NCBI RefSeq assembly: GCF_003287975.1
Contig: NZ_QMKQ01000032.1
Location: 1 to 38,843, forward strand
Reading direction: 5' to 3'
Source of the DNA: Arthrobacter sp. AQ5-05
GTDB lineage: Bacteria > Actinomycetota > Actinomycetes > Actinomycetales > Micrococcaceae
Length of the DNA stretch: 38,843 bases
Part shown: in pieces, positions 14,001 through 35,946 of the stretch
How positions within the stretch are numbered: the first letter of the stretch is position 1
Layout: every line of letters starts with the position of its first letter
Position numbers and translations under genes: made by a program
The notes under the pieces: generated by a model
What the model was told of the DNA's origin: nothing
Databases searched by the model: none
The model's input: the letters and a program-made list of their open reading frames with translations, nothing else

Positions 14001-14050
14001 ATTGGTTGCCAATTTTGGCTTGGACATGCATCGATGCACTCTCCTAGGGT
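14001..14050 (+). promoter_or_regulatory. LysR / dehydratase divergent control region
   Basis: Three dyads are packed here: ATTGG-TTG-CCAAT (14001-14013), GCCAA-TT-TTGGC (14008-14019) and the perfect palindrome TGCATCGATGCA (14027-14038). TGGACA (14021-14026) and TAGGGT (14045-14050) form a candidate promoter with an 18-base spacer for the dehydratase gene. GGCTTGGACATGCATC matches the kdgD promoter element at 15 of 16 positions. Confidence 0.55.
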
Positions 14051-14084
14051 GAGTCTAACCACCCCATTGATACGGAGCCCCAAC

Positions 14085-15413: not shown

Positions 15414-15418
15414 ACGGC

Positions 15419-16402: not shown

Positions 16403-16634
16403 CCCATCGAACCGCATTCGGCCGGCCAGGAAGACGCTTGGAATCCCGGGATCTGGGCCAGTTTCCGCGGAATCAGCTCTCAGGCTGAAGAGTGCAGGCC
16501 ACCGATGGCGCGCCTCCCCGGGGCATATGGCCTGTTGCGCCATGTCAATGCCTCCGGGAAGGTCGATATGGCTGACAATTGCCACTCGGTGGTTTACGCT
16601 CACCACGTAGCCAAACCATGCGAAGGGATTTTCC

Positions 16635-18426: not shown

Positions 18427-19559
18427 GAGCCGCGCGATCGACTGCCGCGCTGCCCGGGCCTCGCCACCGTGGCTGGGATGTATGGCGACCGCTTGCCCCC
18501 GAAGCCTGCGGGCCGCTGCGTATCGGCCGTGGCGGAATGTCCCCGCCCTGGCCGAGGAGGACATTGTCCGTCTCGGCTTCGACGTCAACCAATCTCCCCA
18601 GAGAACGGTTTTTCACCAAGACGGCCAAAGCCGTCGATGGACCGCGGTCGGGCTCCCCCAATACGCCGCTCCTCCCCGGACCTGCTAAACAACGCCGTCG
18701 GCTGGGGCTCGCATGACTGGGGTGCCAATTCCTTTGCACCCAGGCCCTCGGATAGCATCGAGGGCTCCCGCGGGGCCGTCGGGACCGCTGTCAGGCCTTC
18801 TTGGATGCGCAACATGCCCACCCTCCTGAACGCACCCCCTTGAACCGCCCCGAGACCTGCATTTCCTGCCAGCCGGTGGTGTTCAGTAAGACGGACCGCC
18901 AACGGCGGCGGGAATGCCGGCTTCCCGGCCCACAACACGTACGAGTACGCCGCGTTCATCGAGCGCGTCCGGGACTTCACCCTCCAGGTGCACATCGACG
19001 ACCCCGGCCCAACCGGCAGACCGAGATGAAACGACTGTTCCCTATTCGTCGGCATCTGGTTGCGGCCGGCTACCGGCAACCCACGTCCATTCGGCATCCC
19101 AGCACGAGGGCATGGGAGCACGACAGGATTCTCGGCCACCGGTATCGGGCAATAAGCTCAATGGCACATTCCCGCCAGGCTCAGATCAAGAATCGTCGCT
19201 CGATGGGGGTCAGCTCGGGCAGAGACCACGGGCCAAGTGGCCTACGCCGCTGCCGGGACACTGGTGGCGTGTTCGAGCATTGCCTCGTCCCGGAGCCCGG
19301 GCACACAGGACCATGGACAAGCCGCCAACGCGACGCTGGGCGATTTCGGCGGTTCACGCTTCCCGTGGGGCGAGGAAAAAGTCTTCGCCCCTCTTCCATG
19401 GAAAACCCACTTCACACATTTTGCAGGGAAAAGTGAACGGTCTCGATTCCAGGACTCCGCAAGGACTCCGGCTGCGGTCCAGGTCGGGGAAGAGACCCCG
19501 ACGGACGAGGCGGCGGCGACGTCCCTTCCGGGCAAGCGCCACGGAAGGGAGGCAGACCG
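18427..19559. other. Coding-poor stretch of 1.1 kb
   Basis: No complete gene can be supported. Open frames on both strands lack ribosome binding sites and have mixed codon use. One short stretch (18895-19029, +) has near-perfect G/C third positions and looks like a gene fragment, annotated separately. The rest looks like decayed sequence. Confidence 0.5.
18895..19029 (+). pseudogene. Gene fragment, unknown family
   Basis: In the frame ending at the TGA at 19027-19029, the segment from about 18913 reads NAGFPAHNTYEYAAFIERV followed by RDFTLQVHIDDPG. Almost every codon ends in G or C, as in real genes of this genome, unlike the flanking sequence. There is no start codon, no ribosome binding site and no supporting frame upstream. 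I read it as the remnant of a larger gene. The family is not recognised. Confidence 0.4.
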
Positions 19560-20432
19560 CTACACGCTCGAATCCCGTTCGATGAGTCCGGTACGTGGAT
19601 TGAACTGGGGCTTCTGGAAAGAAAGCTCTCCCCCGTTGCGTCCCCCGAACGGCCGTCCATGGTCGGCGTACTCTTCACGGAAGAACACAAGCCTCCAGTC
19701 GCCCAGCTCCATCCTGGCACCGCTGCGCAAGGTATATTCACTCCCTGGCTTCAAGCCGGCACTCCCACCCACTGCGCCCACGGCAACCAGGACGTATTCG
19801 TCAAGTTCATTGTGGACGATTCTCGCGTGCACCGGCTCGAGGCCCGGAAGCTCAAGTCCAACACCCGGCGCACTTCCAATCTCCGTCACCTCATCGATGA
19901 CATTCAGGACCTTGGGCGCCTTGCCATCCCACGATTCGCTGTCCTTGACGAAAATGATCCTCGGCCTGCCCCCACCGCGCGCATAGTGGGTCGTTGTGGG
20001 TGGTCGGCGATAGCGCTTGCGGAAGGTCGGAAGAAGCGGAAAGAAAGTCCCAGGGATTCTCAGCGGTTCGATGGCGCCAGGGCCCCGTCCGCGTCCCATC
20101 AGCCCCTTGGACGCCTCGAGTTTACCCATTCTGACGGCCTTCGATTTGCTTCCAAGGAGGCCGGTCAGATTTGGCTTGACATTGCCGAGGCTGGCGATCG
20201 TTCCCTGCGGCCCGTCAATGACCATCGTTATGCCGGCATTCTTGAGCTTTACCGCAAAGTCGTTCAACGCGGTCGGGTCGATGGACCTTGGTGAGGGGAA
20301 AACCGACAGCGAGTCGGCCGTGATCGTTATGACCTTGCCGTCCGCCTTGACCGTTCCACTGATACCCGCGGGATCGGTGCCTTCGGTGCTTGGCATCTTC
20401 ACGGAGAATGCCAGATCGATGTCGAAACGCAT
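19560..20432 (-). CDS. Protein with C-terminal FHA-like domain
   Basis: This 290-residue protein has an N-terminal beta-rich part (RFDIDLAFSVKMPSTE, then DGKVITITADSLSVF) of unknown function, a basic Pro/Arg linker (about 115-160) and a C-terminal forkhead-associated-like domain (about 178-255). That domain shows VTEIGSAPGVGLELPGLEPVHARIVHN, then YTLRSGARMELGDWRLVFFRE. FHA domains bind phosphothreonine peptides; the His-Ala-Arg motif is present, while the usual early Arg of GR is replaced (EIGSAPG). The ATG at 20432 begins the recognisable fold and follows AGGG, 13 bases after the stop of the upstream small gene. The frame remains open to 20528 but overlaps that gene. Confidence 0.65.
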   Translation of the reverse strand: MRFDIDLAFSVKMPSTEGTDPAGISGTVKADGKVITITADSLSVFPSPRSIDPTALNDFAVKLKNAGITMVIDGPQGTIASLGNVKPNLTGLLGSKSKAVRMGKLEASKGLMGRGRGPGAIEPLRIPGTFFPLLPTFRKRYRRPPTTTHYARGGGRPRIIFVKDSESWDGKAPKVLNVIDEVTEIGSAPGVGLELPGLEPVHARIVHNELDEYVLVAVGAVGGSAGLKPGSEYTLRSGARMELGDWRLVFFREEYADHGRPFGGRNGGELSFQKPQFNPRTGLIERDSSV

Positions 20433-22010: not shown

Positions 22011-22622
22011 ATGACCGCTCAGCAGCCCTACCAAATTGTGCGAACCTACGATGATTTTGAAGTACGCCGCTATCCTGCACATCTCCTTGCAGAGGTCACC
22101 GTCGAGGGAACCTTCGAGCAGGCCGGCAACCGCGCTTTTCGATACCTTTTCTCCTATATCGGCGGAGAAAACCAAGCAAGCCAGAAAGTGGCCATGACCG
22201 CTCCCGTGGTGCAAGACACCGCTGCGCAAAAGATCTCGATGACCGCCCCGGTCCTGCAGCAATCAGGTGCAGCTCAAGGGCATGGGGACGGGGACGGGGC
22301 CCCAAAGTTCCGGGTGGCCTTTGTCCTTCCGGAAGGTTTCACGATCGAGAACGCGCCTCGACCCAGCAATCCCAGGGTGCACCTGGCCACAGTCCCGGAG
22401 AGCCTTGCCGCGGTTATTCGGTTCAGCGGGCGCTGGAACGCTGGAAACTACCAGCGACACCTTCAAACACTGCGAATTGCCTTGAAAGAGTCCGGACTTG
22501 TGCCGATTGGGCCGCCGCGTTTTGCAAGATTTGATCCCCCGTTCAAGCCATGGTTTCTGCGCCACAATGAGATAGTGCTCGATCTGAAGGACCACGACGG
22601 CAACGCCAGCGGCACGGCATAG
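22011..22622 (+). CDS. SOUL-family heme-binding-like protein
   Basis: This 203-residue protein matches the SOUL/HBP family. It has the starting YQIVRTYDDFEVRRYPAHLLAEVTVEG, the AGNRAFRYLFSYIGGENQASQKVAMTAPV core, a second MTAPV (KISMTAPVLQ) and the C-terminal RFSGRWN, RFARFDPPFKPWFLRHNEIVLDL. SOUL proteins bind heme or tetrapyrroles in some eukaryotes; bacterial members are mostly uncharacterised. No signal peptide is seen. The ATG at 22011 has no strong ribosome binding site. It stands alone: a coding-poor region lies upstream and a minus-strand operon converges downstream. Confidence 0.9.
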   Translation: MTAQQPYQIVRTYDDFEVRRYPAHLLAEVTVEGTFEQAGNRAFRYLFSYIGGENQASQKVAMTAPVVQDTAAQKISMTAPVLQQSGAAQGHGDGDGAPKFRVAFVLPEGFTIENAPRPSNPRVHLATVPESLAAVIRFSGRWNAGNYQRHLQTLRIALKESGLVPIGPPRFARFDPPFKPWFLRHNEIVLDLKDHDGNASGTA

Positions 22623-22991: not shown

Positions 22992-23939
22992 CTATTTGGA
23001 GACTTTTCCCGTCAGGCTGGCAAGCTGCCGCAGGAAGGTCGGCCGGGCCAGAATCGACGCCGTCGCCATCACGGCCACCGATACGGCAAAGATCCCAAAG
23101 CCCACCCAGCCCGCGTCATCCCGGGAAGCGAACATGTGGTTCAGGTTCCGCAACGCTCCGGTGCTCAGCACCAACGCTACGTGCATGGTCGCAAAGGCAG
23201 TGAAGAAGAGCAGAACCGGGAAATGGGCCTTCCGCGCCGCTTCCATCGGATAGATCCGCTCCAGCGCCGGATGGCCTTTCGGCCATGCCGGGCTCATCCG
23301 CACCCCCGTGATTACCGCGAGCGGAGAGGCAATGAATACGATCGCGAAGTAGGCCAGCACCTGCAGCGCGTTGTAGTTGATCCACCCGTTCTCCAACGGC
23401 CAGTCCAGCGACGCATATTGCAGCGCGGGGCTGACCGCGTTGGGGAAGATGTCCCAACCGGTGGGAACGATGCGCATCCACCCGCCGGAGATGAACAGCA
23501 ACACCATGAAGACCGCGCCATTGAGCAGCCACAACACATCCAGGCTCAGGTGGAACCAGAGCTCCAGGCTGATCTTCACCGGCTCGGACTTGGTCTTGAA
23601 GATCCCGGTGCTCTTCCGGGTCCAATAGGCCTTGGGTCGAGCCGTGGCGCGGACCAGCCACCCCGACCGAATGATCAACACGAGAAAGAAGGCGTTGAGG
23701 AAGTGCTGCCACCCAAGCCACACGGACAATCCCACCGGGGCACCGGCAGGATGCTCGCTGTGCCCCGGGTAGCGCAGCACGAAGTCCTGCACGGGGCCCA
23801 GGGTACGGGCCCATTTGGCCAGGAACACGAAAAGTGCCATCACCAGCACGGCTAGGACCATCCACTTGGCCAACCGCACCCATTTGTTTGCGCCGCCCGG
23901 GGCGTTGGTCCCCGGCTTCGACCTGGCCAGCAACGACAT
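22992..23939 (-). CDS. Cytochrome b-like integral membrane protein
   Basis: This 315-residue protein has about six membrane segments and histidines placed as in di-heme cytochrome b561 / hydrogenase or formate dehydrogenase cytochrome b subunits: [38 protein letters not shown], and [25 protein letters not shown] with two His in one helix. These families pass electrons between a soluble donor and the quinone pool. It is the last gene of the long operon, 14 bases after etfA. It is therefore a candidate membrane partner taking electrons from EtfBA, which would replace or supplement ETF:quinone oxidoreductase. That role is inferred from position and family. Confidence 0.75.
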
Positions 23940-23953
23940 CGTCCGGGCCTTTC

Positions 23954-24940
23954 CTATGCGCCAGCGGTGATGCTGCTGCGTTCCGCGATGGCGTCCTTGA
24001 GCTGCGGCACGATGGTGAACAGGTCCCCGACGATGCCAAAGTCGGCGATGTCGAAGATCGGGGCGTCGGCATCCTTGTTGATCGCCACGATCCGCTTGGC
24101 CGTCTGCATGCCGGCCAGGTGCTGGATGGCACCGGAGATGCCCACCGCGACGTACAGCTCGGGAGAAACGCTGACCCCGGTCTGCCCGACCTGGTGGCTG
24201 TGCGGGACGTATCCTGAGTCCACCGCCGCGCGGGAGGCTCCCAGGCCCGCACCCAGCGCATCGGCCAGGTCCTCCACCAGGGCGAAGTTGTCCTTGGAGG
24301 CCAGTCCGCGACCGCCGGAAACCACGATCCTTGCGGCAAGCAGTTCCGGGCGAGCGGACCCGGTGGCAATCGCCGTGCGCGATTCGACCACGGCGGATGC
24401 GGTGGTGGATACGTCCAAGGCCACGAGGTTGACCACGGGATCCAGCACGGCATCGAGCGGTTCGGCGCCGGTGGATCCCACGGTGACCAAAGCCGTGCCG
24501 GCACCGATCGATGACTCCGTGAGGTAGTTTCCGCCGAAGACCGAGTGTGAGGCAACGATGTATCCCTCGCGCGTGGAAAGTTCGAGCGCTTCAAGGACCA
24601 CGGGGTTCTTGGTGCGCATCGACAAGCGGCCGACGACCTCACGGGCGGGCGCACTGTTCGAGGCCAGGACGGCGACCGGAGCGTATCTTTCCATGGCCGC
24701 GGCCAGCGCCGCCACGGAACATGCTTCCACGTGGGAATCGGCCTCGGCGGTCTCGGCGATGAACACCTCGCCCGCTCCCATGGTTGCCAGATCGGCCACC
24801 AGGGGTCGGCTGTTGCCGGGGAGCGCTGCGACCACGGCCACCGGGGTTCCCAGGTTCGCGGCCAGCGCCAGCAGGTGGGCAGCGTTCGGGCGCGGGGAGC
24901 CGTTTTCCGCCAGTTCGATGTTTACCAGGATGTGGGTCAT
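23954..24940 (-). CDS. etfA: Electron transfer flavoprotein alpha subunit
   Basis: This 328-residue FAD-binding subunit of the ETF heterodimer accepts electrons from acyl-CoA dehydrogenases. The C-terminal FAD domain is well conserved: [49 protein letters not shown], then [31 protein letters not shown]. The N-terminal domain is of normal length. It lies 12 bases after etfB and 14 before the cytochrome-b-like gene. Being in one operon with two acyl-CoA dehydrogenases suggests a dedicated ETF for this pathway, in addition to any housekeeping copy. Confidence 0.95.
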
Positions 24941-24952
24941 GTCGAATCTTCC

Positions 24953-25723
24953 TTAGATCAGGTTCTCGGCGACGAGGTAGGCGGCCAGTTGCGAGGCGGC
25001 CTGCCCGTCATCAACGATTTTGGTTCCTGCGGTGCGGGCGGGTCGACGGGAGGAGCTCAGCACCAGGTTTCCCTTGCCCGCATCGTGGGCGGCGAGTCCC
25101 AGGTCGCTGGCTGAGCGCAGGGCCACCGGCTTGCGCTTGGCCCCCAGAATGCCCTTGAACTTCGGGAACCTCGCTTCCCCGCTGGCCTCGGTGACCGAGA
25201 CCACCGCCGGGGTGGTTGCCCGCAGCGTCGTCGTGCCCCGGCCATCCGAGCGCCGGCCGCGCACGGTGCCCCCGGCAACGTCCAGGGAGTCCAGTGGGCC
25301 CAGAAACGGCAGTCCGAGCGCCTCGGCGATCATCGCCGGCACCACGCCTCCGCGTCCGTCGGTGGATTCGTTGCCGGCGATGACCAAATCGCATCCGGCA
25401 TCCTGCAGTGCCGCAGCCAGCGCCTTGGCGGTGTCCAACGCGTCGGACCCGGCGAGCGACTCGTCGCTGACGTGGATCGCCGAATCAGCGCCCATTGACA
25501 GGGCCTTGCGCAGCGCCTCGGCCGCGGCGGCCGGACCCATGGTGACGGCCACGATCTCCACGGATTTGTCGGCGTCCTTGTGCTTCAAGGCCGCCTCGAG
25601 GGCGCGTTCGGTGATCTCGTCGGCGATCCGGTCGCTGGCCGTCCGGTCCGCCCAGCCGTTGGAGTCCAGATGGCGGTCGTTCTCGGTGCAGGGCACCTGC
25701 TTGATCAGCACTGCAATCTTCAT
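24953..25723 (-). CDS. etfB: Electron transfer flavoprotein beta subunit
   Basis: This 256-residue AMP-binding ETF subunit begins KIAVLIKQVPCTENDRHLDSNGW. Further family blocks are EIVAVTMGPAAAAEALRKALSMGADSAIHVSD, DLVIAGNESTDGRGGVVPAMIAEALGLPFLG and AVVSVTEASGEARFPKFKGILGAKRKP; the last resembles the recognition-loop region contacted by acyl-CoA dehydrogenases. ATG at 25723 is chosen because AAGGAACGAG precedes it and homology starts there; the frame extends to 25768 without a signal. It follows the thioesterase gene by 72 bases, the largest gap in the operon, so an internal promoter is possible. Confidence 0.95.
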   Translation of the reverse strand: MKIAVLIKQVPCTENDRHLDSNGWADRTASDRIADEITERALEAALKHKDADKSVEIVAVTMGPAAAAEALRKALSMGADSAIHVSDESLAGSDALDTAKALAAALQDAGCDLVIAGNESTDGRGGVVPAMIAEALGLPFLGPLDSLDVAGGTVRGRRSDGRGTTTLRATTPAVVSVTEASGEARFPKFKGILGAKRKPVALRSASDLGLAAHDAGKGNLVLSSSRRPARTAGTKIVDDGQAASQLAAYLVAENLI

Positions 25724-25795
25724 GGTTGGCTCGTTCCTTGGTTGTTGAAGGTGTCGATGGGGTGGCAATCCACCCCGGGTTTCCGGTCCGCGCGG

Positions 25796-26464
25796 CTAGG
25801 GCGCGCCGGTCTCCGGGATGATCCGCGGCGGCAGCCACAACCCCCGTGCCCGGGCCACCACGGATCCACCGGCACGGATTTCTCCGAGGACCCAAATCTT
25901 GCGCCCGTCAACGTGCTCCACCCGGGCCGAGATTTCCAGCTCCTCAAAGAGCGGCACCGCATGGTCGTAGTCAACGGTCAAGGATCTGGTGAAGATCAAT
26001 GTCCCGATCGTTCCGGCCGCGTAGCCCATGATGTGGTCCAACAGCGCGGCCACAAATCCGCCGTGGACCCGGCCGGGAGGGCCCTGGTAGGCCAAGCCGA
26101 GCGTCGTGGTGGTGCACGCGGTATTGTCGTCGGCCACCCTGAGCTTCACCGGCGGTGCGATGGGGTTCAAGACGCCGGAAATCGGTGAACGGTCCCGGTA
26201 GCTGTCCTTGCGCGGTCCGCGGCGATCGGCCATCGGGTCTCCGGCCATGGCCTCCACCGGCTGGATATGTTCAGCGAGCAGTTCCAGCACCGATTCCAGC
26301 CGCCGGGCCAGTTCCGGCGCGACGGGTGTGTCCTCCGGAAGCCTGACCATGGCATCGAGCAGCTTCCGGGCGTGCCCGGCCGCCGCGACCAGGGACCGGC
26401 GGTTGTGTTCGGTGTCCGCCTGGTCCGCCGTTGCCGACGGCCACGCCACCGGCCTAGTTGTCAT
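25796..26464 (-). CDS. PaaI-type hotdog thioesterase
   Basis: This 222-residue protein has an N-terminal extension of about 100 residues (helical, with DSYRDRSPISGVLNPIAPP near its end) and a C-terminal hotdog domain. The active-site helix reads GPPGRVHGGFVAALLDHIMGYAAG, like the HGG..A.L.D segment of the PaaI/4HBT thioesterases, and a second strand block LTVDYDHAVPLFEELEISARV follows. These enzymes hydrolyse acyl-CoA, often to recycle CoA or remove dead-end intermediates. The start overlaps the end of the Ltp-like gene by 11 bases. The acyl specificity is unknown; context points to an intermediate of the same pathway. Confidence 0.85.
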   Translation of the reverse strand: MTTRPVAWPSATADQADTEHNRRSLVAAAGHARKLLDAMVRLPEDTPVAPELARRLESVLELLAEHIQPVEAMAGDPMADRRGPRKDSYRDRSPISGVLNPIAPPVKLRVADDNTACTTTTLGLAYQGPPGRVHGGFVAALLDHIMGYAAGTIGTLIFTRSLTVDYDHAVPLFEELEISARVEHVDGRKIWVLGEIRAGGSVVARARGLWLPPRIIPETGAP

Positions 26465-27632
26465 TGCCCAGGATCAGCGCGCTGGTCGGGACCCCGGTGC
26501 CGGCGGTGACCAGCACGTTGCGGGCATTGGGCACCTGGTTGACGGCGGTGCCGCGGATCTGCCGCACGCCCTCGGCGATGCCGTTCATGCCGTGGATGTA
26601 GGCCTCGCCCAGCTGCCCGCCATTGGTGTTGATCGGCAGGCGTCCGCCCAGTTCGATCGCCCCGTTCTTGATGAAGTCCTTCGCTTCTCCCGGGGCGCAG
26701 AAGCCGAATTCCTCCAGCTGCGCCAGCACGAACGGGGTGAAGTGGTCGTAGAGCACCGCGGTGTCGATGTCCGCGGGTCGCAGCCCGGTGTCGTTCCACA
26801 GCTGGCGGGCCACGTTGCCCATTTCCGGCAATGCCCGGTCGCCGTCCTTGCGGTAGTAGCTCACCATGGTGTGCTGGTCGTAGGCAGCCCCCTGGGCGGC
26901 GGCCTTGATGGACACCGCCTGACCGGGCAGGTCCTTGGCGCGTTCCGGGGTGGTGATGACGAAGGCCTGGCCACCGTCGGATTCCTGGCAGCAGTCCAGC
27001 AGATGCAGCGGATCGGCGATCCACCGCGAGGCCTGGTGGTCCTCCAGGGTGATCGGCTTGCCGTAGAACCAGGCCTTGGGGTTGGTGGCAGCGTGCTTGC
27101 GGTCGGCCACGGCGATGCGGCCGAAGTCCTCGGATGTGGCACCGGTCAGGTGCATGTAGCGCTGGGCGAACATGCCCACCCAGGAGGCCGGGGTCATCAG
27201 GCCGAAGGGCAGTGTCCAGGCGTAGGCGGCGGCGCGGGCGTCCGGGGCCATGCCCGCGGTGCTCATGGCCGCCCCGAAACGGGCGCCGGAGCGTTCGTTG
27301 AAGGCGCGGTAGCAGACCACGGTCTTGGCCACGCCGGTGGCCACGGCCATCGCCGCGTGCAGGATGGTGCCGGCGGCGGCGCCTCCCCCGTAGTCCACGT
27401 GGCTGAAGAAGTTCAGCTCCTTGCAACCCAGGCCGCGGGCGACCTCGATGGCGGGGTTGGTGTCCATGGAATAGGTCACCATGCCGTCCACGTCGTGCGG
27501 GTTGACCCCGGCGTCGCGGCAGGCGGCCAGCGAGGCCTCCTGGGCCAGCTGCAGCTCGGAGCGGCCGGAGTTCTTGGAGAACTCGGTGGCGCCGATGCCC
27601 ACGATGACTGCCTTGTTCAGCAGGTTGCTCAT
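26454..27632 (-). CDS. Ltp2-like thiolase-fold lipid-transfer protein / probable aldol lyase
   Basis: This 392-residue thiolase-fold protein is of the SCP-X/Ltp type. The nucleophile Cys of thiolases is absent: the region reads SHVDYGGGAAAGTILHAA. Conserved blocks remain, including AVLYDHFTPFVLAQLEEFGFC (Tyr295) and LPINTNGGQLGEAYIHGMN (Tyr345, His347). In mycobacterial Ltp2, Tyr residues in such blocks serve retro-aldol cleavage in complex with the DUF35 part of ChsH2. Here a DUF35 gene lies two genes upstream in the same operon, supporting a retro-aldolase role that releases a short acyl-CoA (propionyl-CoA in the steroid case). The start at 27632 overlaps the preceding MaoC stop by four bases. 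The substrate is not determined. Confidence 0.85.
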   Translation of the reverse strand: MSNLLNKAVIVGIGATEFSKNSGRSELQLAQEASLAACRDAGVNPHDVDGMVTYSMDTNPAIEVARGLGCKELNFFSHVDYGGGAAAGTILHAAMAVATGVAKTVVCYRAFNERSGARFGAAMSTAGMAPDARAAAYAWTLPFGLMTPASWVGMFAQRYMHLTGATSEDFGRIAVADRKHAATNPKAWFYGKPITLEDHQASRWIADPLHLLDCCQESDGGQAFVITTPERAKDLPGQAVSIKAAAQGAAYDQHTMVSYYRKDGDRALPEMGNVARQLWNDTGLRPADIDTAVLYDHFTPFVLAQLEEFGFCAPGEAKDFIKNGAIELGGRLPINTNGGQLGEAYIHGMNGIAEGVRQIRGTAVNQVPNARNVLVTAGTGVPTSALILGNDN

Positions 27633-28072
27633 GCCGATTCCCCTTTCGATGGGATCACGATGTCTACGGTGCCGGTGACGTGCGGGCCCAGGGAATTGGT
27701 GCCGATGACCTTGACGGTGAGGTTCTGGCCCTGGACGGATTCGACGGTGCCGGTGAAGACCATTTCGTCGCCCGGGAAGTTGGTGGCGCCCAGGCGGATG
27801 TTGATCCGGCCCACGCGGGCGGCCGGGCCCGCCCATTGCCCCACGTAGCGGTTGACCAGGGCATTGGTGGTCAGGATGTTCATGAAAACGTTCTTGGTTC
27901 CCGCGGCCTCGGCCACGTCCTTGTCGTGGTGGACCTTTTGGAAGTCCCGGGTGGCAATCGCCCCTGTGACGATCAGCGTGGCTGTGATCGGGATCCGCAG
28001 CTCGGGCAGCTGATCCCCCGCGGCGATCGTCTCCGGGCCGGTGGGGGCGATGGCGGATGTATCGGTGCTCAT
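27629..28072 (-). CDS. MaoC-like hydratase subunit, ChsH1-like
   Basis: This 147-residue single-hotdog protein has the (R)-hydratase active-site motif: ATRDFQKVHHDKDVAEAAGTKNVFMNILTTNALV, with Asp43 and His48 placed as the catalytic pair of MaoC hydratases. The spacing and FMNILT are like ChsH1 of the mycobacterial igr operon, which hydrates the enoyl-CoA of the last side-chain round together with the N-terminal MaoC part of ChsH2. It overlaps both neighbours by four bases. It most likely works with the MaoC-like protein at 28533-29051, which lacks an evident active-site motif. Confidence 0.85.
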   Translation of the reverse strand: MSTDTSAIAPTGPETIAAGDQLPELRIPITATLIVTGAIATRDFQKVHHDKDVAEAAGTKNVFMNILTTNALVNRYVGQWAGPAARVGRINIRLGATNFPGDEMVFTGTVESVQGQNLTVKVIGTNSLGPHVTGTVDIVIPSKGESA

Positions 28073-28533
28073 GAGTGGCCTCCTTCCGGGCGTGCCACGG
28101 GCAGCACCAGGTCCGCGTCCATGCGTTCGACGGTGATGGACACCGCCATGCCGATCACCACGTCCTCGCGCTCAACGTCTTCGAGGTTCATGACCACGCG
28201 CGGGCCCTCCTCAAGCTCCACGACGGCCACGATGTAGCCCGGCTCGAACGGCGGGACGATGGGGTGGTAGAGCACCACATAGCTGTGCACGATGCCGCGC
28301 CCGCCCATGGTCTTCGGTGCCCAGTGGACGGAATGGCACTCCGGGCACATCGGAACCGGCGGGTGGCGCAGCTCGTTGCAGTCGCTGCACTGCTGGATGG
28401 CCAGCTCGCCCCGCTCGGTGAGGGCCTCGAAGAAGAAGGCGTTGTCCAGGTTGATCGCCGGGCGCGGGCGCAGGGCCTCGCTCTTGGCCGGGGCGTTGTC
28501 CTCGGCCAGTGTCGCTGACAGGGTCTCGGTCAT
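28069..28533 (-). CDS. DUF35 (OB-fold, zinc-ribbon) protein
   Basis: This 154-residue protein has a rubredoxin-like zinc ribbon, CSDCNELRHPPVPMCPEC (Cys49, Cys52, Cys63, Cys66), followed by an OB fold (GIVHSYVVLYHPIVPPFEPGYIVAVVELEEGPRVV). DUF35 proteins act as partners of thiolase-fold enzymes; in ChsH2 the same domain binds Ltp2 and is required for retro-aldol cleavage. Here it is a separate gene. It begins on the last base of the upstream MaoC-like stop (TAATG) and overlaps the downstream ChsH1-like gene by four bases. The N-terminal 30 residues are low-complexity and Ala-rich. Confidence 0.88.
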   Translation of the reverse strand: MTETLSATLAEDNAPAKSEALRPRPAINLDNAFFFEALTERGELAIQQCSDCNELRHPPVPMCPECHSVHWAPKTMGGRGIVHSYVVLYHPIVPPFEPGYIVAVVELEEGPRVVMNLEDVEREDVVIGMAVSITVERMDADLVLPVARPEGGHS

Positions 28534-29051
28534 TAGGAGTTCCTCTTTTCCGGGTTGTACCAAAGGGTGCGGAAGCGCATGGTGCCCACGCGTTCCCCGG
28601 CCTGGTCGGTGTAGGTGGTCAGGGTGGTGATGAAGTAGCCCTCGCCCAGGCCCGTCTGCTTGGGTCCCACGAAGGTCTCCACCTTCTCGGTGGCCGTGAG
28701 CAGGTCCCCGGGCACCAGGTAGCGGTCGTATTCCTGGTCGCAGTTCACCGCCACGACCTTCGGGTACCCGGACTCGGCCAGGATCCCGTAGGCGTGGTCC
28801 ACGTCGGATTCGATCACCGGGTCCGAGGGGTTGATCATGTTCCAGACCTGCAGGGCCGAGGGTGGGGCGACCACGTCCGGGTGGCCGGCCGCCCGGGCGG
28901 CCGCGGGGTCCAGGTGGATCGGGTTTTTCTCCCCCATGGCCTCGCACAGGTGGTGGATCATCGGCCGGTTGACCGCATCGCGGGCCACGGAGACCCTTTC
29001 GCGTCCGGCGGCGATGATCTCGCCGATCCTTGCGCTTGGATCGTTGCTCAT
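28533..29051 (-). CDS. MaoC-like (FAS1-type dehydratase) protein, ChsH2 N-terminal-like
   Basis: This 172-residue hotdog protein has the pattern VSVARDAVNRPMIHHLCEAMGEKNPIHLDPAAARAAGHPDVVAPPSALQVWNM, then DQEYDRYLVPGDLLTATEKVETF. It resembles the N-terminal MaoC-like half of ChsH2, the structural partner of ChsH1; the usual D....H catalytic pair is not evident. In mycobacteria this half is fused to DUF35; here the DUF35 partner is the next gene, joined by a one-base TAATG overlap. It probably forms a hydratase with the 27629-28072 product and bridges to the Ltp2-like protein. Confidence 0.82.
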   Translation of the reverse strand: MSNDPSARIGEIIAAGRERVSVARDAVNRPMIHHLCEAMGEKNPIHLDPAAARAAGHPDVVAPPSALQVWNMINPSDPVIESDVDHAYGILAESGYPKVVAVNCDQEYDRYLVPGDLLTATEKVETFVGPKQTGLGEGYFITTLTTYTDQAGERVGTMRFRTLWYNPEKRNS

Positions 29052-30763
29052 ACTGTCTCCTTGATGGGGGTTTCCGCGGGCCGCAGCGGCAAGAGATGCG
29101 CCCGGCCGTTCTCCTGGAACATTGCCTCCAGGGTTTGCACGGCGCGTTCATCGAGTTTCTCGAAGTGCAGGGCGCGGCCCGGGCGGTGGTAGACGTTCTC
29201 GTTCACCAGCCACGCGTCCCTGCGCAGCCGCGGCTTGTTGATCTTCTGTGTGGCCGTCACCGGCACGTCCTTGACCACGCTGAGGAACCGGGGGGCCCAC
29301 TTGGTGCCCAGATCCGGTTGCGCCTCGAGGAAGGCGGTGAAGGCGGCCGGATCGAAACTCCCGGGATCGGGGACCTGCAAGGTGGCCATGACCTGGTCTC
29401 CGGTTCTGGCGTCGGGGACCGGGTAGACCGCCGCCAGCAGGGCACCCGGGTAGCGCGAGAGCACGCGTTCCACGGGTGCGGCGGAGAAGTTTTCACTGTC
29501 CACGCGCAACCTGTCGGAGGTGCGGCCGGCGAAGTAGAAGAACCCTTCCGCGTCGCGGTAACCCAAATCGCCGGTCAGGAACGCGTTGCCGCGGATGCGC
29601 TCGGCGACCGCCTCGGGGTTCTTGTAGTACCCCTCGAAAAGGGGAGCCCCGCTGAGGTTCGCCAGTTCCCCGATCGCTTCCCCGGCGTTGAGGATGCGCC
29701 CCGAGTCGTCCAGGACGGCAGGCGGGCACTCTTCCATCGTTTCGGGGTTCACCACCGCAGCATCCATGCCCTCGGGTGGCAGGCCGAGGGAACCCTGGGG
29801 GGTTTCCGGGGTGCGGCGCAAGGTCAGCCCGCCCTCGCTGGCGCCGTAGTTTTCGGTGGGCCAGATGCCGAAGCGGCGGTGGAACTCGGCCAGGTCCAGG
29901 TCCGAGGCCTCGGTGCCGAAGCAGGACTCCAGGTTGGTCCGGTTTTCCTGGTTTTTCTCGGGCTGGGCCAGGATGTAGGACAGCGAGCGTCCCACGTAGT
30001 TGAAGTAGGTGACCTTGTAGCGCATCAAATCCGGCACAAAGCCGGACGCCGAGAACTTGCGGGCCAACGCGAAGGCGCCGCCGGTGTACAGCGGGTTGGC
30101 CCAGCAGGCGAAGATGCCGTTGCCGTGGAACAGCGGCATCGAGTTGTAGCTGACATCGTTGCCGCCCAGGCCCATGTGGCGGAATTCCGCGGTGCGGTAG
30201 AGCCGCCCGGTCGTGCAGATCACCGCCTTCGGGTCTCCCGTGGACCCCGAGGTGAACAGCAGCAGCAGTGCGGTGGCCGGATCCCCGGCGGCGGCGATGT
30301 CCGGGCGCGGGGCGTTGCGGTGCCTGTCGAGCTGCGCGGCGTACTGCGGGGTTTCGATGCGCAGGATCTTGCGTTCCTCGACCCCGGGTTCCACGCCGCT
30401 GAACAGGGATTCCAGTTCCCCGCTGGTGACCAGGATCTCGCAATCGGTGTACGTGATGTCGCGGACCAGTTCCTCGCCGCGGCGTGTCAGGTTGATCCCC
30501 ACCACGGTCGCGCCGGCATAGGCGGCACCCCCGATGGCGAAGATGTATTCCGGGTCGTTCTCCAGCATCACGCCCACGTGGAACGGCTTGCCTTCCTCGT
30601 GCAGCGAGAGCATCAGGTGGGCCCGGACCCTGCATTCGGCCACCACCTCGGCCCAGGTCCAGATGCGGCCCTCGAAAAGCAGCCCGGGGCGATCGTCCTC
30701 GGCCCTGCGGTCCAGCAGGTCCCTGGTGGTGTGGTCTTTTGTCGTTTCGACGTCCGTGTTCAT
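29048..30763 (-). CDS. Acyl-CoA synthetase (FadD-type, AMP-forming)
   Basis: This 571-residue ANL-superfamily ligase activates a carboxylic acid to its CoA thioester through an acyl-adenylate. The P-loop is LLFTSGSTGDPKAVI (TSGSTGDPK at 171-179), the A5 motif is ENYGASEGG (306-312 region), the A7 motif is FLTGDLGYRDAEGFFYFAGRTSDRLRVDSEN, and the C-terminal catalytic Lys lies in ATQKINKPRLRRD. It is similar in architecture to FadD17/FadD19-type enzymes of actinobacterial steroid and branched acid metabolism; the exact match is uncertain. It overlaps the MFS and MaoC genes by four bases each. It would activate the acid brought in by the MFS transporter. Confidence 0.9.
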   Translation of the reverse strand: MNTDVETTKDHTTRDLLDRRAEDDRPGLLFEGRIWTWAEVVAECRVRAHLMLSLHEEGKPFHVGVMLENDPEYIFAIGGAAYAGATVVGINLTRRGEELVRDITYTDCEILVTSGELESLFSGVEPGVEERKILRIETPQYAAQLDRHRNAPRPDIAAAGDPATALLLLFTSGSTGDPKAVICTTGRLYRTAEFRHMGLGGNDVSYNSMPLFHGNGIFACWANPLYTGGAFALARKFSASGFVPDLMRYKVTYFNYVGRSLSYILAQPEKNQENRTNLESCFGTEASDLDLAEFHRRFGIWPTENYGASEGGLTLRRTPETPQGSLGLPPEGMDAAVVNPETMEECPPAVLDDSGRILNAGEAIGELANLSGAPLFEGYYKNPEAVAERIRGNAFLTGDLGYRDAEGFFYFAGRTSDRLRVDSENFSAAPVERVLSRYPGALLAAVYPVPDARTGDQVMATLQVPDPGSFDPAAFTAFLEAQPDLGTKWAPRFLSVVKDVPVTATQKINKPRLRRDAWLVNENVYHRPGRALHFEKLDERAVQTLEAMFQENGRAHLLPLRPAETPIKETV

Positions 30764-32271
30764 GACTGGTCCTTAAGGGCGAGGGTGGTTTCCCGGGATT
30801 CGGATTCCTGTGCGTGCGGGGCCCGTGTCGGTGGAATGAAGTAGACAACGACAATGGTCAGCACGCAGGTGGCGATGAGCACGCCCACGACGAGGAAGAA
30901 CCCGGAGAGCGAGACGTACGTTTTCTCGCCCGCGAGAACGGGAGAGAATGCGAGCATCAGGCCCACGACCGAGGCGGCAACCGCTTGGAAGGCGGTGCGG
31001 GTCACCGCGTTGACCCCGGTGGCGGTGCTGGTCTGCTCGGGAAGGACGCACTCGACGATGACCGTCGGCATGCCGGAGTAGAGGAACCCGGTGCCGAAGA
31101 TGACCACCACCAAACCGGAGATCACCACGGGGAGCTGGCCCGGGGCGAGGCAGACGATGAGCAGGCCCACGATGGTCAGCAGCGAGCCGATCATCAGCCC
31201 GATGCGGGCACCGAAGCGTGCGGAGATCCTTCCGATCAGCGGCGAGATGCAGAAGGCCGCGGCGGCGGTGATGAATCCCAGCAGGCCCGTCATGGTGGCG
31301 CTGAGTCCCAGTCCGATGGGCAGATCCAGCACGCTGCCATCCGCCATCACCACGCTGCCGGGATTGCGGTAGATCGTGACGGACAGGATGTTCATGGTCC
31401 CGATCGGCCCGACGGCGATCAGCGCGGTGGCCAGCATGCCCAGGGCGAACTTGCGCTGCCCGAACATCCGCACGTTGATCATCGGCTCCTCGGTGCGCAA
31501 TTCCCAGGCGACCCACAACACCAGGCCGGCCAGGCCACCGAGCAAAAATGCGAGCACCCAGAAGTCGCTCCAGCCGCGGCTCTTGCTCAGCGTCAGCCCG
31601 TAAAGAGCTGCGGCAATGGCCGCTCCGAAGACCAGGCCGCCGAAGTAGTCGACCTTGCCGGAGCGGGCCAATGTTTGCCGTGGCTCGCGGGCAATGCCGA
31701 AGTGCACCAGGGCCGCGGCAAGGGTTGCGAAGACCGCCGCGGTCCAGAAGATGTAGTGCCAGCTGGCGTAGTCCAGGAACAGGCCTCCGCCGAGCATGCC
31801 GCCGGCACCGGCGATAAGCGCCGAGGTGCTGACGACGGCGATGCCCATGCTGATCTTGGCCGCCGGGAAGGTGGCACGGACCATGCCGATGGCCAGGGGC
31901 AGCACCGCCCCGGAGACACCCTGCACCGCACGTCCGGCAACCAGCACGCCGAAACTCGGGGCCAGGGCGCTGATGACCGAGCCGATGGCGGAGAGCAGCA
32001 GGATGGCGACCAGGACCTTGCGCCGGCCGAACTGGTCGCCCAGCCGGCCGACGAATCCGGTGGCCAGCGCGGCGACCAGCGAGTACGCGGTGATCACCCA
32101 CACGAGCTTGGACAGATCGGTGGTGAAGAAGTCTCCCGGCGTGTAGAGCAGCTGGACCGCCATGGAGGTCTCGAACGCGGCAACCACCTCGGCGATCACC
32201 AGGATGGTGAGAACGGTGCCGACGCTGCGGCCGGCCAGCGGCGAAGGGCCGGCGGACAGCGGGGCGGTCAT
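30760..32271 (-). CDS. MFS transporter (DHA2-like, 14-helix type)
   Basis: This 503-residue major facilitator has about 14 hydrophobic segments. The N-terminal motif-A loop is GFVGRLGDQFGRRKVLV, and motif B/C-like helices follow (SFGVLVAGRAVQGVSGAVLPLAIGMVRATFP; STSALIAGAGGMLGGGLFLDYASWHYIFW). DHA2 proteins mostly export drugs, but similar transporters sit in catabolic operons as importers. The ATG at 32271 overlaps the acyl-CoA dehydrogenase stop by four bases. Being locked inside a catabolic operon points to uptake of the acid substrate, or efflux of a toxic intermediate. Direction cannot be told from sequence. Confidence 0.9.
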   Translation of the reverse strand: MTAPLSAGPSPLAGRSVGTVLTILVIAEVVAAFETSMAVQLLYTPGDFFTTDLSKLVWVITAYSLVAALATGFVGRLGDQFGRRKVLVAILLLSAIGSVISALAPSFGVLVAGRAVQGVSGAVLPLAIGMVRATFPAAKISMGIAVVSTSALIAGAGGMLGGGLFLDYASWHYIFWTAAVFATLAAALVHFGIAREPRQTLARSGKVDYFGGLVFGAAIAAALYGLTLSKSRGWSDFWVLAFLLGGLAGLVLWVAWELRTEEPMINVRMFGQRKFALGMLATALIAVGPIGTMNILSVTIYRNPGSVVMADGSVLDLPIGLGLSATMTGLLGFITAAAAFCISPLIGRISARFGARIGLMIGSLLTIVGLLIVCLAPGQLPVVISGLVVVIFGTGFLYSGMPTVIVECVLPEQTSTATGVNAVTRTAFQAVAASVVGLMLAFSPVLAGEKTYVSLSGFFLVVGVLIATCVLTIVVVYFIPPTRAPHAQESESRETTLALKDQS

Positions 32272-33404
32272 GATCCCTCCAGCGGGAGAATCACGTTGGC
32301 CAGTTCCTCGGCAACCTGTCCGGCGGAGCCCCACAGCACGTCCAGTTCGCGGACCCAGATAAAGAAGCGGTGGATGTGGTTGTCCAGGTCCGCGCCCATG
32401 CCGCCGTGCAGATGCTGGGTTGCGTGGACCACGCGGAAGCCGCCCTCGCGGGCGCACCAGGAAGCGGTGAACGCGGCGAGTTCCCCCTCCCCGTCGTTGT
32501 CCAGCTGCCAGGCGGCATCGATGGCGGTCAGCCAGGTGACCTCGGAATCGATGTGTGCATCGGCGGCGCGCATGGCCACGCCCTGGTTGGTGGAAATCGG
32601 CCGACCGAACTGCCGGCGTTCGGAGGTGTAGGCGGCGGTGCGGCGGACCGCTTCGGCACAGGCGCCGGCCGTGAGGGCGGCTGCCGCGGTGAGCAGGCGC
32701 GGGCGGATCCAGGCGGCGACCTCCCCGGCGGGGCGGTCCGCGCCGAGCAGGTCTTCGCGCGCCACGGCGACGTTGGCCAATGCCAGCGCCGCATGTTGTT
32801 GCTTGGAAAGTCCCGTGAACGGGTCCAGGACGATTCCGGCGCGGTCGGCCTCCACCAGGGCAACCATGTCACCGGCGTCGGTGTGGAACTGGAGCATCAG
32901 GTGGGTTGAGCTCGGCACCAGGTAGCCGAAGTCGATGGTTCCGTCCAGCACCCAGCCGTCCCCGGCCCGCACGGCGTTGATGCGCCGGCGCACCTCGGGC
33001 AACACGAGTCCCACCCGCGCGGTCCCGGCACCGATGCTATCCAGTACTCCGCGTCCACCGCCAAATTCGGCCAGCGCCAACGCGGCCACGGCAGTGGTCG
33101 TGAAAGGGATGCGGCCCAGGTGGCGGCCTTGCTCGCGGGCGACCAGGGCCAGACCCACCATGCCCAGGCCTGGTTCGTCCGGGCCCGCGGGAAGCAGGGC
33201 CTCGAGCAGGCCCGCCTCGGCGATTTGCCCCCAGAGGACGGGATCGAAGGCTTCCCCGGTCTTCTCCGAGGCCACCTGCCGTTCGTCTCCGCTGAGATGC
33301 GAGAAGATTTGGGCCGCGAGGTCCGCGACCGCCTGCTCGTCCTCCCCCAGGGTGAATTCCATGTTGGGGGCCTGCAGGGTCTGTTGAATACCGGGAGTGC
33401 TCAT
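32268..33404 (-). CDS. Acyl-CoA dehydrogenase, second subunit (ChsE-like)
   Basis: This 378-residue acyl-CoA dehydrogenase-fold protein is divergent. It starts MEFTLGEDEQAVADLAAQIF and has a weakly conserved FAD region. It lacks the clear YTE..AGTD motif of its neighbour (the corresponding region reads YLVPSSTHLMLQFHT). The C-terminal part carries RRTAAYTSERRQFGRPISTNQGV and ATQHLHGGMGADLDNHIHRFF, typical of the family. In ChsE1-ChsE2-type heterotetramers one subunit binds FAD poorly and the other supplies complementary residues; this pair fits that pattern. The start at 33404 overlaps the upstream dehydrogenase stop by four bases. Confidence 0.88.
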   Translation of the reverse strand: MSTPGIQQTLQAPNMEFTLGEDEQAVADLAAQIFSHLSGDERQVASEKTGEAFDPVLWGQIAEAGLLEALLPAGPDEPGLGMVGLALVAREQGRHLGRIPFTTTAVAALALAEFGGGRGVLDSIGAGTARVGLVLPEVRRRINAVRAGDGWVLDGTIDFGYLVPSSTHLMLQFHTDAGDMVALVEADRAGIVLDPFTGLSKQQHAALALANVAVAREDLLGADRPAGEVAAWIRPRLLTAAAALTAGACAEAVRRTAAYTSERRQFGRPISTNQGVAMRAADAHIDSEVTWLTAIDAAWQLDNDGEGELAAFTASWCAREGGFRVVHATQHLHGGMGADLDNHIHRFFIWVRELDVLWGSAGQVAEELANVILPLEGS

Positions 33405-34582
33405 CGTGCCTTCCTTGCCATTCCGAGGGTGGTCCAGGCGACAATCTCGCGCTGGACTTCGGCAACGCCGCCGCCGAAGGTGTTGATCTGGGCGCCCAGG
33501 TTCATCAGGGCCAGGCGCCCGGTGTCGAAGCGCCAGGGCCCGTCGGTGATGCGCGAGGCACCGGTGCCGACGACCTCCAGCAAGGAGCGGTAGACATCGA
33601 CAACGGTCTCGGTGGCGAAGACCTTGGCCGCGGAGGCTGACCCCGGATCGAGATCGCCGCGGGCGGTGGTTTCCACAAGCTTCCAGTTCATCAGGCGCAT
33701 GGCGCGCAGCCGTGCGGTCGAGGTGGCCATCAGCTGGCGCACCCACGGTTCGGCGCGCAACGGCGTGCCGGCGGCGGTTCTCTGTTCACCGACCCATGCG
33801 TGGACATCCTCGAGCAGCCCCTCGCAGATGCCGCTGAAGGCGGCCAGGCCGACCCGTTCGTGGTTCAACTGGGTGGTGATCAATTGCCAGCCTTCGTTCT
33901 CCTTGCCGACCACGTTGCCGACGGGCACACGAATGTCGTCGTAGTACGTGGCGGTGGTGCTGAACCCGCCGACCGTGTGGATCGGGGTGGCGGAGAACCC
34001 CGGTGCCGAGGTCGGGACCAGGATCAGTGAAATGCCCTGGTGCTTGGGTGCATCCGGGTCGGTGCGTGCGGCCAGCCAGATCCAGTCGGCACCGTCGCCG
34101 CCGGAGGTGAAGACCTTGCTGCCGTTGATGACGTACTCGTCTCCGTCGCGCACCGCACGGGTCGTCAGGGACGCGAGGTCGGTGCCGGCCTCGGATTCGG
34201 TGTAGCCAATCGAGAAGATGCATTCGCCGGCCAGGATCCGTGGAAGAAAGTAGTCCTTCTGCTCCTGGGTTCCGTGGCTCATGATGGTGGGGCCCACGGT
34301 GGTCATGGTGATCATCGGGATCGGTGCGTCGGCTCGGTAGGCCTCGTCATAGAACACGAACTGTGCGTCGGGACCGAGGCCCTGGCCTCCGTATTCCACG
34401 GGCCAACCGATGCCGAGCCAGCCGTCGCGGCCCATCCGGGCCTGGGTCGCGGCGAGGACCGGGCCTCCGGCCTCTCCCTCTTCACGCAACCCGGCCCGCA
34501 CTTCATCGGTCAGGAGATTGGCGAAGTAGGAACGAAGCTCCTCGCGGAGATTCTCGATCTCCGGGGAAGAACGTAGGTGCAT
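33401..34582 (-). CDS. Acyl-CoA dehydrogenase, first subunit (ChsE-like)
   Basis: This 393-residue FAD-dependent dehydrogenase introduces an alpha-beta double bond in an acyl-CoA and hands electrons to ETF. Visible motifs are GIGWPVEYGGQGLGPDAQFVF, the substrate/FAD loop IFSIGYTESEAGTDLASL, NGSKVFTSGGDGADWIW and the C-terminal FAD-contact INTFGGGVAEVQREIVAW. It is the first gene of the 12-gene operon and lies 52 bases after the predicted transcription start, with GAAAGG before the ATG. Pairing with a second, divergent dehydrogenase suggests an alpha2-beta2 enzyme like those acting on bulky steroid side-chain CoA esters. Confidence 0.93.
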   Translation of the reverse strand: MHLRSSPEIENLREELRSYFANLLTDEVRAGLREEGEAGGPVLAATQARMGRDGWLGIGWPVEYGGQGLGPDAQFVFYDEAYRADAPIPMITMTTVGPTIMSHGTQEQKDYFLPRILAGECIFSIGYTESEAGTDLASLTTRAVRDGDEYVINGSKVFTSGGDGADWIWLAARTDPDAPKHQGISLILVPTSAPGFSATPIHTVGGFSTTATYYDDIRVPVGNVVGKENEGWQLITTQLNHERVGLAAFSGICEGLLEDVHAWVGEQRTAAGTPLRAEPWVRQLMATSTARLRAMRLMNWKLVETTARGDLDPGSASAAKVFATETVVDVYRSLLEVVGTGASRITDGPWRFDTGRLALMNLGAQINTFGGGVAEVQREIVAWTTLGMARKAR

Positions 34583-34640
34583 TACGTTGCCTTTCGTCGT
34601 TGAACAGGCGTTGGCCGTCGGCGACGGCTAGGTGTGACCG

Positions 34641-34669
34641 AGATTACTTGCCGGTCGGCAAGTAAGCAA
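34641..34669 (-). promoter_or_regulatory. Operon promoter with embedded TetR-type operator
   Basis: On the minus strand TTGCTT (34669-34664) and TAATCT (34646-34641) are 17 bases apart. A perfect 10-bp inverted repeat, TTACTTGCCG-GT-CGGCAAGTAA (34644-34665, read on +), spans the whole spacer and both box edges. Binding there would block RNA polymerase. The predicted start is near 34634, about 52 bases before the first gene. The TetR protein encoded at 35371-35946 is the obvious candidate. Confidence 0.8.
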
Positions 34670-35370: not shown

Positions 35371-35946
35371 TTACGCTTCTAGGGACTCGCGGACGAAACC
35401 GTAGACAATCTCGCGCCGACGCTCAGGGGTCATGCCCTGGACCACGGAACGATCTTTTTCAAACACGATCTCGCGGTGCATGACGTCCATGAGGAGTATT
35501 GCCCGCACCTGCTCTTCATCACTCATGCCGGGGAGCATAGCCAGCTCGATGGTGCGTTTCCGGTGCCACTGGATTCTTGTCAAGATTTCCTCGGGCATCC
35601 ATGCCTGGTTTGCGCCAATTGACAGAACCGCGACCGCCCGGGCGTTGGACAGCAGCAGCTCCGAGTATGCGAACAGGAATTTCCACCGCTCGTCGGCGTT
35701 GGGAAATCGCTCCGGGGTGTCCGCCAAGAGTGTGTCAACCTCATCCAGTAGCGGATCGAGTATTCCACTGAGGATGTCGGCTTTGCTCTTGAAATGGTAG
35801 TAGAGCGCAGCTTTCGTGAACTCGAGCCTTGAGGCAATCAAACTCAGCGGCGTACCGGGGTAACCGTGCTCCACGAAGAGGTCCGCCGCAATGTCCAGGA
35901 TCTTTTCCCGCGTCGATAGGTTTCCGCTGGTCCGCTTTCTCTTCAC
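35371..35946 (-). CDS. TetR-family transcriptional regulator
   Basis: This 191-residue repressor has the TetR helix-turn-helix (REKILDIAADLFVEHGYPGTPLSLIASRLEFTKAALYYHFKSKADIL, about residues 13-58) and an all-helical C-terminal ligand domain (LLDEVDTLLADTPERF onward). The GTG at 35946 is the only start keeping the basic N-terminus (KRKRTSGNLSTREK); a TAGGAT box ends nine bases upstream, so the message may be nearly leaderless. It lies upstream of the 12-gene operon on the same strand, 0.7 kb from the operator at 34644-34665. It probably represses that operon and is released by a CoA ester or acid of the pathway. No copy of the operator is seen before its own gene. Confidence 0.9.
   Translation of the reverse strand: MKRKRTSGNLSTREKILDIAADLFVEHGYPGTPLSLIASRLEFTKAALYYHFKSKADILSGILDPLLDEVDTLLADTPERFPNADERWKFLFAYSELLLSNARAVAVLSIGANQAWMPEEILTRIQWHRKRTIELAMLPGMSDEEQVRAILLMDVMHREIVFEKDRSVVQGMTPERRREIVYGFVRESLEA

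Follow-up and report, generated by a model that had tools for sequence, protein, structure and literature searches.

Which acid is degraded by an operon that looks like a steroid side-chain pathway and stands apart from any steroid ring gene? The question is raised by a 38,843-nucleotide stretch of DNA from Arthrobacter sp. AQ5-05 (contig NZ_QMKQ01000032.1; the whole stretch is hereafter the window), in which an initial annotation had described a set of genes with the dehydrogenate/hydrate/retro-aldol logic of the mycobacterial igr operon, a ChsH2 divided between two genes, and an alpha-branched acid as the probable substrate. The homology of the subunits supports that logic, and we propose that the operon is, with high probability, a stand-alone module for taking the last three carbons of the side chain (C20–C22) off steroid-22-oic acids. 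For each of the six predicted dehydrogenase, hydratase, and aldolase subunits, the best solved relative is a steroid side-chain enzyme. The steroid-derived option of the initial annotation therefore stands, but the breadth that it allowed is not needed: the ligase class, the tyrosine pair of the aldolase, a glycine in one acyl-CoA dehydrogenase (ACAD), and the genome-level company of the operon narrow the likely substrate to a steroid with a C3 side chain.

The predicted genes are given below, with domains assigned by Pfam and coordinates in the whole window; the nine core genes are those from ACAD1 to the thioesterase.

35371–35946, minus strand: TetR-family regulator (TetR_N, E 1.3e-13)
33401–34582, minus strand: ACAD1, catalytic ACAD subunit of the ChsE2/CasL-N type (acyl-CoA dehydrogenase domains; PDB 6wy8_B)
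32268–33404, minus strand: ACAD2, partner ACAD subunit of the ChsE1 type (acyl-CoA dehydrogenase domains; 6wy8_A, 4x28_D)
30760–32271, minus strand: MFS transporter, DHA2-like (MFS_1, E 1.5e-39)
29048–30763, minus strand: FadD, putative steroid-22-oyl-CoA ligase of the CasI class (AMP-binding; best NCBIfam model NF052587)
28533–29051, minus strand: MaoC-N, hot-dog half of ChsH2 as its own gene (FAS1_DH_region, E 2.1e-19; 4w78/4wnb)
28531–28535, minus strand: TAATG junction of the ChsH2 halves, with AGAGGA upstream of the ATG
28069–28533, minus strand: DUF35, Zn-ribbon/OB half of ChsH2 as its own gene (zf-ChsH2 and OB_ChsH2_C; 6ok1_B)
27629–28072, minus strand: MaoC2, ChsH1-type catalytic hydratase subunit (MaoC_dehydratas; 4wnb_B)
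26454–27632, minus strand: Ltp, Ltp2-type retro-aldolase (Thiolase_C_1; 6ok1_A; NCBIfam PRK07855)
25796–26464, minus strand: 4HBT thioesterase (4HBT, E 2.6e-10)
24953–25723, minus strand: EtfB (ETF, E 1e-33)
23954–24940, minus strand: EtfA (ETF_alpha, E 5e-35)
22992–23939, minus strand: membrane protein of 315 residues that accompanies EtfBA (without a Pfam match)

The gene list, the coordinates, and the overlaps of 1 to 11 bases between 34582 and 25796 are as first annotated: from ACAD1 to the thioesterase, successive core genes overlap by 4, 4, 4, 4, 1, 4, 4, and 11 bases, and the thioesterase, EtfB, EtfA, and membrane protein genes are spaced by gaps of 72, 12, and 14 bases. The survey of gene order in relatives that had been suggested finds the order of the nine core genes in Glutamicibacter protophormiae and seven other Micrococcaceae genomes, and the arrangement is therefore not due to chance. 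In one of these genomes (G288) the ACAD2 match lies in three pieces in different frames (L170 5482–6583) over a stretch with no N, which reflects either a real defect or an assembly error.

Homology and catalytic residues of the subunits

Dehydrogenation would fall to adjacent genes for a catalytic and a partner ACAD related to Tcur3483/Tcur3481, as in the heteromeric ChsE1–ChsE2 enzyme. The top PDB match of ACAD1 is 6wy8_B (Tcur3483, E 3.8e-123) and those of ACAD2 are 6wy8_A (Tcur3481, E 1.3e-48) followed by 4x28_D (E 1.2e-30); we take Tcur3481/Tcur3483 to be a steroid side-chain dehydrogenase. ACAD1 retains the glycine that is replaced by alanine in 6wy9 and that presumably sets side-chain specificity, and its Glu242, which we assume to be the catalytic base, and Gly370–372 are identical in all 84 aligned rows (repeated fetches counted).

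The best solved relative of Ltp is 6ok1_A (Thermomonospora Ltp2, E 7.1e-177), and Ltp scores 669.9 bits on the NCBIfam lipid-transfer protein subfamily model PRK07855, above the curated cut-off of 469. Both catalytic tyrosines are kept, Y295 (within YDHF) and Y345 matching Y294 and Y344 of TcLtp2. In the accessible portion of PMC12329534, the YDHF tyrosine and the second tyrosine are the catalytic pair of C3-cleaving TcLtp2, and the second is Gln in C5-cleaving Sal; the window Ltp is predicted to be an Ltp2-type retro-aldolase with a C3-type pair. As for the hydratase, MaoC2 best matches 4wnb_B (E 4.9e-34), with an Asp43/His48 dyad that is identical in 90 of 90 aligned rows (repeated fetches counted), and MaoC-N matches chain A of the ChsH1–ChsH2 structures 4w78 and 4wnb (E 6e-38). 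These two entries name their chains oppositely, and the chain with NPIY (Tyr for His) was taken as ChsH2 after the available text of PMC11321319. DUF35 best matches 6ok1_B, ChsH2(DUF35), with E 8.6e-34, and its four zinc-ligand Cys (CSDC, CPEC) are kept in 10 of the 10 rows of the window clade.

The initial annotation had called the last gene product a cytochrome b, a label that we could not confirm: a Pfam search with the 315-residue protein gives nothing up to E 0.5, despite four His (His79, His130, His239, and His253) that are invariant in five homologues. A structure model built from a two-row alignment is unusable, with a mean predicted local distance difference test score (pLDDT) of 42.9. 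The protein is a possible di-heme b-type partner of EtfBA on the quinone side. A gene for a SOUL heme-binding protein (22011–22619, plus strand) adjoins the membrane protein gene. The set was also described as self-contained, which holds for its own ligase, transporter, electron transfer flavoprotein, and TetR regulator, but not every member is constant: EtfBA and the membrane protein were not found next to the operon in G010 and strain MYb213, and they sit upstream of it in G351.

A ChsH2 divided between two genes

ChsH2 is a MaoC–DUF35 fusion in igr; in the window it is two open reading frames (ORFs) that meet at TAATG, a junction already reported and confirmed here at 28531–28535. One explanation would be an ordinary fused gene with a frameshift introduced by sequencing or assembly, since TAATG is obtainable by a single-base shift. 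We give it almost no credence and regard it as ruled out by the relatives: in all 13 Micrococcales genomes that were examined, the halves lie in different frames, and their junctions vary, being TAATG in four, TGATG in two, ATGA in four, and TGAAAATG, ATGACTGA, and TGAGATG in one each. In the junctions displayed, the second start follows a purine-rich (AGGAG-like) stretch. The longest ORF in the DUF35 frame (360 residues, 28069–29151) was rejected as an overlap artefact, in which the first 206 residues come from an out-of-frame reading of the MaoC gene and the FadD end.

The split is thus real, but as a feature of this genome it is common to its lineage and occurs elsewhere too. A first survey of 90 loci gave 71 fused, 6 split, and 13 without an adjacent pair; a second, of 173 loci, many of them short or repeated, found an adjacent pair in 99, comprising the 71 other loci with a fused ChsH2 and 28 split loci. 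The latter are repeated fetches of 12 genomes, the window being the 13th, with G015 and G041 counted as one species (the tested 200 bases are shared) and likewise G016 and G190 (matching positions). On a midpoint-rooted Ltp2 tree of 93 rows, from which repeats, rows below 50% identity or 330 aligned residues, and rows with stops were dropped, the split needs at least two changes, one in the window clade with Brevibacterium and one in another Micrococcaceae group (g32); a single change suffices in none of the 200 bootstrap trees. The row of a Rhodococcus plasmid (L004) is likewise split but carried no split label, so that its change falls outside this count. In this tree, six proteobacterial Ltp2s form a group with the window clade (support 99/94).

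Separate halves appear workable, since the MaoC and DUF35 halves of the Comamonas ChsH2, expressed apart, retain hydratase and aldolase activity according to the accessible part of PMC12502768. In a related hydratase, the DUF35 domain needs no MaoC domain to bind the partner aldolase, as given in the portion of PMC11321319 at hand.

Substrate, ring-degradation genes, and rival readings

The best NCBIfam model for the ligase is NF052587 (CasI) at 607.9 bits, ahead of the next by 131 bits, and at E ≤1e-60 this model, which also detects FadD1/FadD17-like ligases, finds exactly one match in each of seven operon genomes (including G000). The C24 ligase CasG has no match over its cut-off in seven operon genomes (best 309–329 of 750 bits); among the controls, Prescottella (G018) passes the CasI and CasG cut-offs and Mycolicibacterium (G019) passes neither. 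CasI is specific for steroid C3 side chains in the part of PMC8399759 available to us. One CasI-model match and no CasG over cut-off fit a host that would import C22 acids made by others, not whole bile acids or sterols. The same two counts, with an Ltp tyrosine pair of the C3 and not the Sal type, speak against a module that acts directly on longer steroid side chains (C5 of bile acids, C8 of sterols), a reading that we consider highly improbable even though double-MaoC genes of the multifunctional enzyme 2 hydratase 2 type, resembling the class that serves longer steroid side chains, lie near the operon in two relatives devoid of KshA and KstD (L171 999–1907 and L015 214–1221).

The transporter shares 35.8–37.2% identity (475–492 residues) with three MFS genes near KshA in the window genome and G010 and 27% with two other MFS proteins of the same genomes; it may serve either steroid-acid uptake or product export. 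In all nine genomes with an Ltp identity of at least 90% (window included), the thioesterase adjoins Ltp; it probably releases CoA from stalled esters. A TetR homologue precedes the operon in G001, G010, G068, G288, and G. protophormiae, and the regulator is likely a repressor. In the route that we propose for steroid-22-oic acids, the MFS protein would import the acid, the CasI-class ligase would form its CoA ester, and ACAD1–ACAD2 would introduce a C17–C20 double bond, with electrons passing to EtfBA and perhaps on to the membrane protein. MaoC2 and MaoC-N would then hydrate at C17, and Ltp, assembled with the separate DUF35 subunit, would cleave C17–C20 by a retro-aldol reaction to a 17-ketosteroid and propionyl-CoA. 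The thioesterase would rescue CoA, TetR would repress the operon, and the rings would be degraded by KshA/KstD/Hsa enzymes encoded elsewhere in the genome.

The absence of steroid ring genes noted initially is true of the window, where none was found and the ring-gene neighborhood of igr is missing, but not of the genome. KshA genes over the Pfam cut-off are on contigs C26 and C54, a KstD-like gene is on C54 (479 bits to the best model, below the cut-off of 675), and an HsaA-like gene is on C20 (380 bits, below the cut-off of 450; 81% identical to G010 HsaA), the KstD model having been found through an NCBIfam scan of ORFs flanking a mycobacterial locus. HsaC-like and HsaD-like ORFs beside HsaA on C20 were recognized by inspection only, and the G010 counterpart of HsaD scores 272 bits against a cut-off of 400. 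On the single contig of G010, the operon at 3.74 Mb and the ring cluster at 4.03–4.05 Mb are ≈290 kb apart. The distribution of the genes in the family also speaks for a steroid: among 395 Micrococcaceae genomes, an even draw from the larger family, Ltp2 (E ≤1e-120) occurs in 12, KshA in 11, and both in 7 (Fisher P 9e-10). Four of the 11 KshA genomes (G003, G009, G283, and G332) are without Ltp2 at that limit. KshA is present in four of the nine genomes with Ltp identity ≥90% (P 4e-5, shared ancestry ignored), and across 13 operon genomes the presence or absence of KshA (E ≤1e-20) and KstD (E ≤1e-60) is concordant.

Several points weigh against our assignment. All functions in the operon are assigned by homology; the ligase misses the curated CasI cut-off (607.9 versus 900 bits) and is filed in the CasI class only; and the window MaoC-N has Glu in place of Asp and retains His where ChsH2 has Tyr, the typical Tyr being present in 7 of 10 MaoC-N rows of the window clade. 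The family-wide P value for Ltp2 and KshA ignores relatedness, and within the genus of the window their co-occurrence is not significant (2/4 versus 2/11, P 0.27). KshA and KstD are both absent from 6 of the 13 operon genomes (G001, G011, MYb213/G190, G288, G351, and Brevibacterium permense; hereafter ring-less), and the operon is therefore not tied to ring degradation. HsaA was not found at E ≤1e-50 in five of these six; the sixth, MYb213/G190, has a relative of HsaA that matches the model with E 9e-96 and is 29% identical to G010 HsaA. Finally, the split may cost efficiency, because the Comamonas DUF35 alone complemented worse than full-length ChsH2 (PMC12502768, accessible part) and a Sal–DUF35 pair lost activity on dilution, falling >2-fold below the full complex (PMC11321319, portion at hand).

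The ring-less genomes, and the ligase score under the CasI cut-off, would also fit a smaller nonsteroid acid such as cyclohexylacetate or a terpenoid ring acid, whose beta-carbon would become a tertiary alcohol and whose cleavage would yield a cyclic ketone and an acyl-CoA. A (1-hydroxycyclohexan-1-yl)acetyl-CoA lyase was reportedly described decades ago from an Arthrobacter strain, but no lyase paper was among the matches listed for this substrate (titles and abstract starts). Ring-less G351 also carries genes for an aldehyde dehydrogenase, a monooxygenase resembling flavin-containing monooxygenases, and a zinc alcohol dehydrogenase ≈1 to 6 kb downstream of the operon (L171 14502–19786), which could process a cyclic ketone or be unrelated. 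We judge this alternative unlikely: the best solved relatives of the catalytic subunits are steroid enzymes, and the window genome itself carries ring-type genes. Of the ring-less assemblies, G011 is 88% complete in 410 contigs, G001 has 160 contigs and 5% contamination, and G288 and G351 are single contigs at 95% and 99%. In MYb213, the operon is followed (L014 12051–19860) by an ORF with two ACAD regions, an acyl-CoA synthetase-like ORF recognized by inspection, another thiolase-like gene (32% to Ltp), and another DUF35-like stretch (31%).

Described counterparts, possible transfer, and significance

The mycobacterial igr set shares the logic of the operon, but the closest described set is CasI with CasL–CasP of Rhodococcus jostii RHA1, the cholate C3 set, with which six parts are shared (C3 ligase, two ACADs, two hydratase subunits, and aldolase) according to a table in the available part of PMC8399759. 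In the window, by contrast, the parts form a single overlapping operon at a distance from ring genes, which also includes a TetR, an MFS protein, a thioesterase, and EtfBA of its own; ChsH2/CasM is in two genes, and the genome has no CasG match over the cut-off. The igr ChsE1–ChsE2, ChsH1–ChsH2, and Ltp2 are homologous to the window dehydrogenase, hydratase, and aldolase, in which the catalytic residues are kept; the window differs in its split ChsH2 and its own ligase and transporter, whereas igr adjoins ring genes. KstD lies ≈6 kb from Ltp in the mycobacterial locus L043, and igr is, we assume, located beside CYP125.

ORF40–44 of Comamonas testosteroni TA441 carry out an equal reaction series, shown by mutants in the accessible part of PMC12502768, where ORF40 is a MaoC–DUF35 fusion whose halves were separated only artificially; in the Ltp2 tree, of which TA441 itself is not a member, the window clade groups with other proteobacterial Ltp2s. 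Conjugative plasmid p3 of Novosphingobium sp. ES2-1 brings together TetR, EtfBA, ligase, two ACADs, ChsH2, ChsH1, and Ltp2, as in the window, but with ChsH2 fused and no MFS or thioesterase annotated within that gene run; the self-contained set is therefore not unique to Micrococcales. Another natural split is on Rhodococcus rhodochrous pGD02.2.1 (L004 13544–16176), where MaoC-N, MaoC2, DUF35, and Ltp are four genes in that order, with CaiB/BaiF CoA transferases upstream in place of the ligase, no ACAD annotated in the 31 kb shown, and a long branch in the Ltp2 tree; this set probably serves another substrate. The chemistry is known, and ChsH2 as separate proteins is the variant feature. Arthrobacter is one of the predicted steroid degraders of Bergstrand et al., in whose follow-up A. 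gangotriensis is an exception (PMC4810484, available part). Neither the operon nor a natural ChsH2 split is described among the matches listed (titles and abstract starts) for ChsH2, KshA, or steroid degradation in Glutamicibacter, Arthrobacter, Micrococcaceae, and Brevibacterium, a search whose coverage excluded most subscription papers.

A codon comparison covered six genomes; G288 was left out for its broken ACAD2, and the G351 thioesterase was skipped where the alignment passes a stop at residue 217 of 221. In four ring-less genomes (G011, G001, G351, and MYb213), the ratio of nonsynonymous to synonymous substitution rates (dN/dS) is 0.04–0.31 for the compared operon genes, with synonymous sites near saturation for MYb213; since it is low there, the operon looks constrained in these hosts, which suggests that they are side-chain-only scavengers. 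Between the window and G. protophormiae, the proportion of synonymous differences is 0.21 for Ltp, 0.24 for MaoC2, 0.33–0.52 for ten other operon genes, and 0.72 for TetR. The low Ltp value (26457–27632) may reflect recombination or codon constraint, and the differences hint, without proof, that the operon moved between genera; the gene set may travel between species as a unit. The G+C content of the operon (0.63–0.69; window ends 0.54–0.60) fails to single it out, because the stretch 8001–20000 is equally rich (0.64–0.69). That side of the window looks like a sugar-acid catabolic region: between 6586 and 15410 it holds genes for a dihydrodipicolinate synthase-family protein, an aldehyde dehydrogenase, and two enolase-superfamily proteins, with a G+C content of ≈0.64–0.69 from 8 kb on.

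We tentatively extend the proposal, to a form that is possible and on the whole doubtful, in which the operon is a horizontally moving module for scavenging C22 acids leaked by bile-acid degraders. The ring-less hosts (6/13) would take only propionyl-CoA and leave or export the 17-ketosteroid, mineralization would be split between species, and the ChsH2 split would uncouple hydratase from aldolase. If this scavenging holds, the split is a natural test of whether channelling needs a fused complex. Natural ChsH2 splits as such make the need for physical joining of hydratase and aldolase testable outside pathogens. The compact operon is a candidate part for androstenedione production from C22 acids. 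If ring-less hosts do use the module, they would release androgen-like 17-ketosteroids as a by-product when using steroids in part, and the breakdown of steroids would be organized across species in a more modular way than the cluster-based picture has it.

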